A DNA stretch of 64,000 nt from a virus. Made by a program: the position numbers and the translations under genes. Shown piece after piece: positions 9,726 through 62,036 of the stretch. The notes beneath the pieces are model-generated. The model searched no databases and was not told the DNA's origin. It was given only the letters and a program-made list of their open reading frames with translations. How positions within the stretch are numbered: the first letter of the stretch is position 1; every line of letters begins with the position of its first letter. The DNA is taken from positions 62,001 to 126,000 of IMG/VR virus record IMGVR_UViG_3300027509_000013. One strand, 5' to 3'.

Positions 9726-9801
9726 GGTAGCCTTGTGCTGTTTTGCAATGCAGCCGGACTGTGGATCTGGTGCGACGGGTTGGATTCCCGAGGTTTACCC
9801 A
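9726..9801 (+). tRNA. tRNA-His(GTG)
   Basis: Anticodon stem CCGGA/TCTGG around CTGTGGA (GTG). D-stem GCTG/CAGC. The acceptor (GGTAGCC with GGTTTACC) starts with the extra G typical of His but has a mismatch, and the T-loop is TTGGATT rather than TTCRA, so it is somewhat degenerate. Confidence 0.75.
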
Positions 9802-9923: not shown

Positions 9924-10003
9924 GGTCAGGTAGCCACCCTCCTCTTCTAAAGGAGTAAGTGTAATTGGAGCTGAAAATCGGGGTTCGAATCCCTGTCTGA
10001 TCA
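9924..10003 (+). tRNA. Atypical tRNA-Arg(TCT) without a normal D-arm
   Basis: Acceptor GGTCAGG/TCTGATC, T-arm CGGGG-TTCGAAT-CCCTG and anticodon arm CTCCT-CTTCTAA-AGGAG (TCT) are all good. But only 8 bases (TAGCCACC) separate acceptor and anticodon stems, and 23 bases (with GTAATTGG) separate anticodon and T arms. TAGC can pair with GCTG in that insert, enclosing the anticodon arm. Confidence 0.65.
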
Positions 10004-12127: not shown

Positions 12128-12133
12128 ATAAAT

Positions 12134-12216
12134 GATTGATCCTCGGATTCGAACCGACCTCTGCCATTGCCACTCACTTTTCAGCGCGGGAGGAATCGAA
12201 CCTCAAAATCAATCAT
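12134..12216 (-). tRNA. tRNA-like composite element, identity unresolved
   Basis: Leftward, TGATTGAT and ATCAATCA form a good acceptor-like stem. Inside are two T-arm-like hairpins, GAGG-TTCGATT-CCTC near the 5' end and TCGG-TTCGAAT-CCGA near the 3' end, with GTGGCAATGGCAGAG (D-arm-like) between them. It does not fold as a normal cloverleaf. Either a chimera of two tRNA pieces or an extreme D-armless tRNA with loop TTCGATT. Confidence 0.4.
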
Positions 12217-12854: not shown

Positions 12855-12928
12855 AGCCTAAGCAGGGATTCGAACCCCGGACATCTTCATTACAAATGAA
12901 GCGCTCTGACCAGCTGAGCTACTTAGGC
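12855..12928 (-). tRNA. tRNA-Thr(TGT)
   Basis: Acceptor GCCTAAG/CTTAGGC, standard D-arm, anticodon stem CTTCA/TGAAG around TTTGTAA (TGT), T-arm CGGGG-TTCGAAT-CCCTG. Its 5' end overlaps the stop codon of the HNH gene. Confidence 0.92.
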
Positions 12929-13365
12929 AAGTTTTTATTTAAATGAGACATTTTACCTCCACATCTTCGGCTACATGTAGGTGTTTTTCCCATTGATAGT
13001 TTATGATTTATATTTTTACAGTCTTTTGAAAATTCATTTTTACAAATTGGACAAATTAAGGTTATCATTGTTTTAGATTTCCCAATATGCTTATTGTGCT
13101 TCACTATATTCTCTTTTCTGGAAAGGATTTGAAGATTTGATATAGAATCATTCATTTTATTTTCATCTATATGATCTACATGCTCTTCTGGCCTTAAATA
13201 CCTTCTTACATGACAACTCATTATATATCTAGCATATGAAGTCGAAGTTTTTGTCCCATCTCTCCGAACCAATGCGACAACTCTTCTTGGTTCTTTGTTT
13301 GTATTTACATATCCTGCGATGTAATCTTTATAATATGGCCATCTTAATACTATTTTTGTTGACAT
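12919..13365 (-). CDS. HNH homing endonuclease-like protein
   Basis: 148 residues. The HNH core is visible at about 57-85: an EEHVDHIDENKMNDSISNLQ segment in which HVDH, N and the downstream N are the expected ββα-metal residues, followed by ILSRKENIVKHNKH. The C-terminus carries CPIC (about 107) and CSRRC (about 134), a zinc-finger module typical of free-standing phage HNH endonucleases. It would nick or cut a specific site and copy itself there. It sits in the tRNA array and its last bases overlap tRNA-Thr by 10, a typical insertion next to a conserved target. Confidence 0.85.
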   Translation of the reverse strand: MSTKIVLRWPYYKDYIAGYVNTNKEPRRVVALVRRDGTKTSTSYARYIMSCHVRRYLRPEEHVDHIDENKMNDSISNLQILSRKENIVKHNKHIGKSKTMITLICPICKNEFSKDCKNINHKLSMGKTPTCSRRCGGKMSHLNKNLPK

Positions 13366-13385: not shown

Positions 13386-13462
13386 TATCTGCGGAGAGAC
13401 TTGAACTCTCATGTGACCAATTACGCTTTCGACAAGATATAAGCTTGAGGCGATACGCAGAC
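13386..13462 (-). tRNA. Atypical D-armless tRNA, anticodon TAT (Ile)
   Basis: Acceptor GTCTGCG/CGCAGAT and T-arm GAGAG-TTCAAGT-CTCTC are good. After TA come 5 bases (TCGCC), then an anticodon-like arm CAAG-CTTATAT-CTTG (TAT), then 21-23 bases containing GCGTAATTGG before the T-arm. No D-arm can be drawn in the usual place. Same layout as 9924-10003 and 13797-13873. Confidence 0.55.
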
Positions 13463-13796: not shown

Positions 13797-13873
13797 TTGG
13801 CACAATAGGATTCGAACCTATGTTTTCAACCGCTATCTTAGTCATGCGTATCAGGCATGCCGATTATGTGCCA
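13797..13873 (-). tRNA. Atypical D-armless tRNA-Ile(GAT)
   Basis: Acceptor TGGCACA/TGTGCCA, T-arm ATAGG-TTCGAAT-CCTAT and a perfect anticodon arm CATGC-CTGATAC-GCATG (GAT). Only TA plus 5 bases (ATCGG) precede the anticodon arm and 21 bases (containing GCGGTTGAAAAC) follow it. AATC may pair with GGTT around the anticodon arm. It and 13386-13462 are the only Ile tRNAs seen, which argues that they are functional. Confidence 0.65.
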
Positions 13874-16781: not shown

Positions 16782-16899
16782 AGGCCAGAGCAGGACTCGA
16801 ACCTGCAACACATCTTATATCGCTAGAAAATAAAGGTGTCTTAAAAATAAGAAGGATACTCCTAAAAAGTACTGCGTCTACCAATTCCGCCACCTGGCC
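16782..16899 (-). tRNA. tRNA-Leu(TAG) with a 49-base variable region
   Basis: Acceptor GGCCAGG/TCTGGCC, Leu-type D-arm (GCGGAATTGGTAGACGC), anticodon stem GTACT/AGTAT around TTTTAGG (TAG), T-arm GCAGG-TTCGAGT-CCTGC. The stretch between anticodon and T arms is 49 bases with two hairpins (CTTA-TTTT-TAAG and an ACAC...GTGT stem), far longer than the usual 13-21. Confidence 0.85.
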
Positions 16900-16967: not shown

Positions 16968-17097
16968 GCTTTTACAAGTATTTATGCTGACAATATAAAG
17001 AATCGCTCTACCCCTAAGCTACCCGACCTTGATTGTTTTTTAGAGGTCGGGATGGGATTCGAACCCATGACCTATTCCTTTAGTTTACTTGTAGCCT
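16968..17097 (-). tRNA. Candidate circularly permuted tRNA gene
   Basis: Leftward order is 3' half, 15-base linker, 5' half. The 3' half (17097-17044) has GGAAT, variable AGGTC, T-arm ATGGG-TTCGAAT-CCCAT, acceptor CCCGACC and T73. The 5' half (from 17028) has acceptor GGTCGGG, TA, D-arm GCTTAGGGGTAGAGC, then ATTCT. Acceptor halves pair perfectly, ATTCT pairs with GGAAT as the anticodon stem, and outer flanks TACAAGTA/TACTTGTA pair over 8 bases. The break is in the anticodon loop, so the anticodon is uncertain (ATA or CTA are possible). Neither half has another partner nearby. Confidence 0.6.
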
Positions 17098-17158
17098 TTC
17101 CCATGTATAATCCTGATGCTAAAGCTATTACCTCAACATTAAATCTAATATCTAGCAT
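17072..17158 (-). CDS. 28-residue open frame overlapping the permuted tRNA
   Basis: ATG at 17158 to TAG at 17072, peptide with a hydrophobic middle (NVEVIALASGLYMGKATSKL). Its end overlaps the 3' half of the permuted tRNA. It reads like protein rather than random sequence, but may be a chance frame. Confidence 0.3.
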   Translation of the reverse strand: MLDIRFNVEVIALASGLYMGKATSKLKE

Positions 17159-25889: not shown

Positions 25890-26148
25890 AACATTATCAG
25901 GAAAAGAAGTATTACACTGTTTTAGAGATTGCAAGGTGATGGATATCCAGAAGCCACCTTGCAATCTTTGTGTTTCAAAGATGGAGAAGTCACTTAGTAA
26001 AAGGAATATCTCTATAACCGAGACAAAACACGTCTTAGAACCACAAGAAGAGAGGATGAATATGACATTTGATCAACTCTGGTGGGCCAATGGTCCAACA
26101 CCTTGCAGAATACCAGGTTATAAGCCCGTATTAAAAAGGCAAGAATAA
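25879..26148 (+). CDS. Small Cys-containing unknown protein
   Basis: 89 residues with C14, C18 and a CNLC pair (about 28-31), possibly zinc-binding, and LWWANGPTPCRIPGY at the C-terminus. Overlaps the previous gene by 11 bases. TnpB follows after 55 bases. Confidence 0.5.
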   Translation: MRLRTLSGKEVLHCFRDCKVMDIQKPPCNLCVSKMEKSLSKRNISITETKHVLEPQEERMNMTFDQLWWANGPTPCRIPGYKPVLKRQE

Positions 26149-61151: not shown

Positions 61152-62036
61152 ATGAGAATACTTTTTGTATTTATTCTTTTCTTTATTTCTTTACAATCTT
61201 GTAGTAATCCAAGTGGGGAGTCTGGTAAAGAAACAGAAACAGTTATTGATAGCTCTTTTGTACCTCACAGTGGAACGGCTTATATGGATTGTGGGATGAG
61301 CCCATATTTATTATTGGGAGATCAGATGTTTACAGATGCAGATACATATTATGAGTGTTCTGTTCGGTTTATAAAAATTGCAAACGAAAAAGAGCCAGAA
61401 GTAGTAAATGCAAGCTTAATAAATAAAGCAATTGAAAATGCGAACATTCATTTTGAATCTTCTAGAATAAGATTTAAAGTAGAAGAGATCGTTGTTGTTG
61501 AAGATCCAAATGCATTTAGGGAAGGGATATCTATGTATCAAAAGCATGGCAGAACGTATAGTGAAAGAGGATATTTGAATGTCTTCATTTATCCAAGTAC
61601 TATAGGAACATACAGTGCGGCAGCAGGAGGAATTCCAAGTAGGTTTTTTGCTATAAAGGAATATTACTTGGCCACGAGTACTTTTGCTCATGAAGCTGCG
61701 CATTGCTTCGGACTTTATCATATCTTTACAAAAGATGATAGTGGATCTAAAAGTACATTTGCAACAGGTGATCTTATTTGTGATACTCCTTATGCTGATT
61801 TTTATTCGCAAGGTAATTCCCTCGGATACACAGGTAGAGTTACTGACAATTGCGAATATGTAGGTCCATTAGGGGGATTGACACAAGAAGAGCATAATAT
61901 AAATATTAGGAATATTACTGGATATTCTTTACTAGAATGTAGAAAAGAATTTACAAAAGATCAAATAGATCGAGTTCATTGGATTATAAATAATTCTCAG
62001 GATTTAAAAGAAATGCTTAAAATGGTAGATATATGA
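61152..62036 (+). CDS. M43-type metalloprotease lipoprotein
   Basis: 294 residues from ATG at 61152, after the overlap with the previous stop. Signal peptide with lipobox (LFFISLQSC). HEAAHCFGLYH (about 180-190) is the HExxHxxGxxH zinc motif of M43 (pappalysin/cytophagalysin), and GDLICDTPYAD (about 205) is the matching downstream block. Exported to the periplasm or outer surface, it would degrade host surface or cell-wall proteins, perhaps aiding exit. The stop overlaps the next gene by 4 bases. Confidence 0.8.
   Translation: MRILFVFILFFISLQSCSNPSGESGKETETVIDSSFVPHSGTAYMDCGMSPYLLLGDQMFTDADTYYECSVRFIKIANEKEPEVVNASLINKAIENANIHFESSRIRFKVEEIVVVEDPNAFREGISMYQKHGRTYSERGYLNVFIYPSTIGTYSAAAGGIPSRFFAIKEYYLATSTFAHEAAHCFGLYHIFTKDDSGSKSTFATGDLICDTPYADFYSQGNSLGYTGRVTDNCEYVGPLGGLTQEEHNINIRNITGYSLLECRKEFTKDQIDRVHWIINNSQDLKEMLKMVDI

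Follow-up and report, generated by a model that had tools for sequence, protein, structure and literature searches.

Arginine and isoleucine tRNA genes with a transposed D-arm in bacteriophages

Introduction

A 64,000-nucleotide stretch of the IMG/VR virus record IMGVR_UViG_3300027509_000013 (positions 62,001 to 126,000, here called the window) contains three tRNA-like genes in which no hairpin lies between the acceptor stem and the anticodon arm. The locus raises the question of whether these are real tRNAs and, if so, what has become of the D-arm. The original prediction, made from the sequence alone, described them as tRNAs with no D-arm, in which TA and 5–6 further bases join the acceptor and anticodon stems, 21–23 bases with D-loop-like GG motifs lie between the anticodon and T arms, and short segments on either side of the anticodon arm pair, nesting it inside a D-like stem. 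The observation is confirmed and reaches far beyond this window. The interpretation of the genes as real tRNAs with a nested anticodon arm is supported, although two of the three proposed pairings needed correction and function in translation is inferred rather than shown. ‘No D-arm’ is better stated as ‘D-arm transposed’, as the D-loop with G18G19 and base 20 is present but follows the anticodon arm. Genes of this kind occur in many bacteriophages, including long-studied laboratory phages, and are nearly invisible to gene finders.

Three tRNA genes in the window

The window is part of a 132-kb record. Its terminase is 26% identical, over 96% of its length, to that of Cellulophaga phage phi14:2 and is more weakly related to crAss-like phage terminases; the portal also matches crAss-like phages. 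ARAGORN finds 18 ordinary tRNAs but calls none of the three genes studied here, tRNA-Arg(TCT) at 9924–10003 (+), tRNA-Ile(TAT) at 13386–13462 (−) and tRNA-Ile(GAT) at 13797–13873 (−). Each has a 7-bp acceptor stem, T8A9, then 6, 5 and 5 nt, respectively, a 4–5 bp anticodon arm with U33, 23, 21 and 21 nt holding GTAATTGG, GTAATTGG and ATAGCGG, and a 5-bp T arm with TTCRANT. The Rfam cloverleaf model (RF00005) scores Arg at 30.5 bits and Ile(GAT) at 39.7 bits and does not report Ile(TAT). No other Ile tRNA is found in the 132-kb record, although the record may be incomplete. In the window, these genes are the only Ile tRNAs and the only AGA reader found, and AGA accounts for 188 of 272 Arg codons in 15 large ORFs.

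The Arg gene (class I, see below) spans positions 1–73 without an encoded CCA. The 5′ strand of the wrapped D-stem (U8 A9 G10 C11 C12 A13 C14) is at 9931–9937 (+), followed by the anticodon arm CTCCT-CTTCTAA-AGGAG at 9939–9955 (+). The inner 3′ strand (GTG) at 9959–9961 (+) pairs with positions 12–14, including C12–G15; the bulged D-loop TAATTGGA, with G18, G19 and A20, is at 9962–9969 (+); and the outer 3′ strand (GCTG) at 9970–9973 (+) pairs with T8–C11. The T arm CGGGG-TTCGAAT-CCCTG is at 9979–9995 (+). The proposed pairing TAGC/GCTG is right but is only the outer half; an inner half (C12–G15, 13–37 and 14–36) exists too. Two trained models of the layout, R1 and R2, give this gene 91.8 bits (R1, which had it in its training set) and 50.7 bits (R2, which did not).

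The Ile(TAT) gene (class II) has U20 and A73. Its D-loop GTAATTGG is at 13417–13424 (−), and C11–G15, G12–C and C13–G close the inner stem, so that the real pairing is CGC/GCG and not TCG/CGA as first proposed. It scores 76.4 bits with R2, whose training set contained a copy shifted by one base, and 41.1 bits with R1, whose training set did not contain it. The Ile(GAT) gene also has U20 and A73, with the D-loop ATAGCGG at 13830–13836 (−). It belongs to the same subfamily as the sequences at our loci L068, L178 and L192 (AGTAAG-GTAATTGG-TTGAAAAT). Here T11–A15 replaces C11–G15, and relatives favour T11–A15 and C12–G over the proposed AATC/GGTT. This gene is the weakest fit of the three, scoring about equally with R1 (40.5 bits; not in its training set) and the cloverleaf model.

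Other unusual elements lie nearby. A tRNA-His(GTG)-like gene at 9726–9801 (+) is reported by neither ARAGORN nor Rfam; its T-loop TTGGATT and D-loop ...TTGCAA... suggest that the 19–56 elbow pair is swapped from G–C to C–G. A tRNA-like element at 12132–12216 (−), with acceptor TGATTGAT/ATCAATCA, has two T-arm-like motifs and no clear anticodon and is possibly a fusion or remnant. A Leu-like tRNA of 118 nt at 16782–16899 (−) has a very long variable region, and its loop TTTTAGG leaves the anticodon ambiguous between TTA (which would read UAA) and TAG. A weak YrlA (Y RNA-like) match at 16984–17104 (−), 34 bits against a gathering score of 69, is located near a DUF7873 ORF.

Distribution of the layout

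Searching for relatives through neighbouring proteins (DNA methyltransferase, DUF7873 and terminase) gave only one contig with identical proteins and distant hits. The motif search was the productive route. We scanned 2.9 million viral contigs with the motif GTAATTGG-N8-16-GTTCGAATC, which fixes the D-loop and T-loop but no anticodon, acceptor or stem. Of at least 121 sites, 121 were examined, and 91 of these passed a layout filter. Of the 30 that did not pass, several are ordinary type II tRNAs or chance matches, and a few (L016, L026, L028, L086 and L125) are members that the filter missed. After removal of duplicates and five stray hits, 73 distinct tRNAs remained, the Arg gene of the window among them, all reading Arg, Ile or CAT. 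That a pattern specifying neither anticodon nor acceptor gave 73 distinct sequences with the same layout is far beyond chance. All 73 have U8A9 and the conserved C. Class I (31 sequences) has 6 nt between A9 and the anticodon arm, and class II (42 sequences) has 5.

Motif searches with an Ile GAT or Ile TAT anticodon returned 41 and at least 119 contigs, respectively. A later scan of the collected loci with a looser motif and any anticodon gave 207 distinct sequences: 92 Arg (TCT, ACG, CCT, TCG and GCG), 109 Ile (TAT and GAT), 6 CAT and nothing else. Part of this set was gathered with Ile anticodons, so the proportions are not prevalences, and the scan required the two innermost pairs. The CAT members resemble the Ile ones at positions 20 and 73 and are probably Ile2 (inference). 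In all 207, only 5–6 nt lie between A9 and the anticodon arm, too short for a hairpin arm, and the acceptor 5′ strand is first and the 3′ strand last.

The class II gene of Escherichia phage heid (Felixounavirus) has matches in 242 phage records, among them Salmonella phage Felix O1 (25951–26029), Klebsiella phages KB57 and KpS8, and Justusliebigvirus. They are mostly unannotated or partly under an HNH ORF; a few are labelled ‘tRNA-OTHER’, ‘Undet’ or ‘TERM’. Other carriers are Mycobacterium phage Cosmo (CCT, by inspection of the alignment), Streptomyces phages Yaboi (TCT, annotated Val-aac; and CCT, unannotated) and Mildred21 (TCG, annotated Phe-gaa), Limnohabitans phage DC31 and Pseudomonas phage PA11. 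The Streptomyces phage genes annotated tRNA-Val(aac) and tRNA-Phe(gaa) (L130:6001–6079 and L134:2001–2076) are better read as transposed tRNA-Arg (TCT and TCG). For PA11, absent from training, R1 gives 90.8 bits against 38.7 for the Rfam cloverleaf.

A pattern scan of 84,980 species genomes gave 21 hits, of which five (L136, L143, L146, L148 and L155) have the layout. L143 is surrounded by HNH endonucleases typical of phages; the others, which were not resolved, may be prophages or binned phage contigs. R1 found one of 395 Bacteroidota, the one already known. R2 found none of 398 Bacillota, but it also missed the known positive there (G002), so this zero is weak. Phage T5 was examined because of its stable ‘tRNA-like’ RNAs; none is of this type, and its Arg and Ile(GAT) tRNAs are ordinary.

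Secondary structure

A first MAFFT alignment of the three window tRNAs was not structural and single-sequence minimum free energy folds do not show the arrangement clearly, so we relied on covariation. In class I, positions 8–11 pair with 47–50 and 12–14 with 36–38 (numbering of our class I alignment, A2), wrapping the anticodon arm; the D-loop UAAUUGGA bulges from between the two halves of the 3′ strand. In class II, 9–10 and 11–13 do the same. Compensatory changes in relatives had been put forward in advance as the test of the nested stem, and relatives show them. On 23 (class I) and 24 (class II) sequences, 94.9% and 98.0% of cells pair, against 65–66% in shuffles, with covariation scores of 0.86 and 0.88 against 0.24 and 0.22; 0 of 500 shuffles reach them, and slid controls reach at most 0.21. 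Those totals include the ordinary acceptor, anticodon and T stems. Within the wrapped stem, class I pairs 10–48, 11–47, 13–37 and 14–36 and class II pairs 12 and 13 change on both sides, with 93.5% of cells paired in the outer helix of class I. Pair 14–36 of class I fails in 7/23 sequences, and the outer pairs of class II do not vary. RNAalifold finds the inner helix unaided.

Before any filter on pairing in this stem, the innermost variable pair forms in 73/73 sequences (31/31 and 42/42 by class), using all four Watson–Crick types (GC, CG, AT and TA). The conserved C–G15 pair becomes T–A in 4 of 207, a change on both sides. The sequences are related, so these counts are not independent events. 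We met no relative with an ordinary D-arm that would point to a sequence error here. The segment after the anticodon arm is neither a short variable loop nor a self-paired variable arm, as it pairs with positions 10–14.

Identity elements and genomic context

Bacterial Arg identity is A20 (the main ArgRS determinant), C35, U/G36 and A/G73; Ile identity includes A73 and U20 (PMC9976931). The base after G18G19 is A in 92/92 Arg members and U in 110/115 Ile or CAT members; base 73 is A in 115/115 Ile or CAT members and mixed in Arg. The identity elements are therefore consistent with the anticodon, although other Ile elements of the published table (C4–G69 and C29–G41) are not general here. CCA is encoded in 19 of 21 members whose canonical neighbours encode CCA and in 8 of 179 whose neighbours do not (Fisher P 2e-18, not corrected for relatedness). 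Of the members, 52% lie within 20 nt of another tRNA on the same strand. In stretches with at least three ordinary tRNAs, the same anticodon is also canonical in 27 cases and not in 188. Twenty-two loci carry such genes with no ARAGORN tRNA in the stretch examined, and ARAGORN overlaps only 9 of 283 copies.

Two leads bear on origin and spread. T5's ordinary Arg(UCU) tRNA (L308:18774–18848) shares acceptor and T-arm sequence with the transposed Arg(TCT) tRNA of Justusliebigvirus PATM (L310:1501–1579), which suggests descent from, or recombination with, a canonical Arg tRNA. HNH endonuclease ORFs abut or overlap transposed tRNAs in the window (12919–13365, −) and at L128, L131, L134 and L311; they lie within 50 nt of 12% of transposed and 2.6% of canonical tRNAs in the same loci, so homing endonucleases may have helped spread. 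Both are leads only.

Discussion

Our comparative data suggest that these are most likely functional elongator tRNAs for Arg and Ile codons with a rearranged secondary structure, a reading to which we assign a probability of roughly 0.85. In this view, after the acceptor 5′ strand and U8–A9, the chain runs down a D-stem 5′ strand straight into the anticodon arm, returns through a linker of a few nucleotides, pairs with the lower D-stem (C12–G15 and two neighbours in class I; 11–13 in class II), bulges out as the D-loop (UAAUUGG+N20), pairs with the upper D-stem up to A9/U8 and enters the T arm. The fold would be a three-way junction of acceptor, T arm and a long D/anticodon hairpin, not a four-arm cloverleaf. 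The helix between elbow and anticodon stem would have about seven layers, close to the number in a cloverleaf tRNA. We infer that G18G19 still dock on the T-loop so that the L shape persists, that host ArgRS reads A20 plus C35 and U/G36, that host IleRS reads U20, A73 and the anticodon, and that phages use these tRNAs to decode Arg and Ile codons. Covariation does not bear on the docking because the search motifs fixed both loops. The layout, the wrapped stem, the conserved identity bases, CCA co-encoding, membership of tRNA arrays and the phage distribution rest directly on comparison of sequences, whereas transcription, processing, charging, use on the ribosome and the three-dimensional fold are inferred; there are no expression, aminoacylation or structural data. 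The restriction to Arg and Ile is unexplained; single origin with anticodon switching, or selection by host systems that attack Arg and Ile tRNAs, are candidate reasons, neither of which was tested. It is probable, on the evidence so far, that the architecture is aminoacylated by host ArgRS/IleRS and used on bacterial ribosomes during infection by many unrelated phages, which would make it the first non-cloverleaf tRNA of a bacterial translation system.

The best surviving alternative, though unlikely, is that the genes encode tRNA mimics or decoys that keep a tRNA shape to occupy a host nuclease, synthetase or regulator but do not decode. Phage tRNAs are linked to evasion of tRNA-targeting defences (PMC10264068), and restriction to Arg and Ile would fit a specific attacker. 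However, the charging determinants track the anticodon, the anticodon loops are ordinary, there are several isoacceptors (TCT, ACG, CCT, TCG and GCG; GAT, TAT and CAT), CCA is co-encoded and a canonical anticodon in the same stretch is rarely duplicated. D-armless tRNAs with a long, independently folded variable region, like some mitochondrial tRNAs or a type II variable arm, would fit the 5–6 nt before and the 21 nt or more after the anticodon arm, but this is very unlikely as the long segment covaries with positions 10–14 and carries the D-loop, with a base 20 that tracks amino acid identity. Decaying or recombined pseudogenes, or precursors that need splicing or permutation to become cloverleaves, would fit the poor cloverleaf scores and the few ARAGORN calls but are equally unlikely given the compensatory changes and conserved identity bases across unrelated phages, a length close to that of ordinary tRNAs and pairs that all nest in the encoded order, so that nothing needs rearranging.

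The order acceptor, D-arm, anticodon arm, T-arm is treated as universal for cytosolic tRNAs, and a widespread natural exception suggests that the tRNA shape and identity set can be reached by another strand order. It lets the need for a cloverleaf be tested directly with E. coli phages and adds parts for genetic-code engineering. It also corrects phage annotation: these genes are missing or mislabelled in most of the hundreds of records that hold them, so counts of phage tRNAs and their codon coverage are off. We found no earlier description of this shape in the open literature, preprint servers and most subscription papers lying outside the search, and the novelty rests on this together with PMC7609411, PMC9976931 and PMC11551756.

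Among known systems, the non-canonical tRNAs reviewed in PMC7609411 (tRNA-Sec, mitochondrial tRNAs and others) also depart from the standard cloverleaf, but the passages considered concern arm sizes or losses, and the words phage, viral and permuted do not occur in that review. Permuted tRNA genes of algae and archaea share an altered strand order in the gene, with the 3′ half encoded upstream of the 5′ half, but are processed to ordinary cloverleaves; here, the ends are normal and the RNA is read as folding in the encoded order. D-armless metazoan mitochondrial tRNAs and the artificial mini HisT of E. coli (PMC11551756) likewise have no hairpin between acceptor and anticodon arms and a 4–6 nt connector, but they lack the D-loop altogether and lose D-loop/T-loop contacts, whereas here the D-loop is kept in a new place; that 2024 study states that all known bacterial tRNAs are canonical cloverleaves. 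Canonical bacterial tRNA-Arg and tRNA-Ile (RF00005) share the acceptor, anticodon and T arms, U8, the T-loop, G18G19, A20 (Arg) or U20 (Ile), A73 (Ile) and the length; they differ in that, in the phage genes, the D-loop and the 3′ half of the D-stem follow the anticodon arm, giving a predicted three-way junction instead of four arms.
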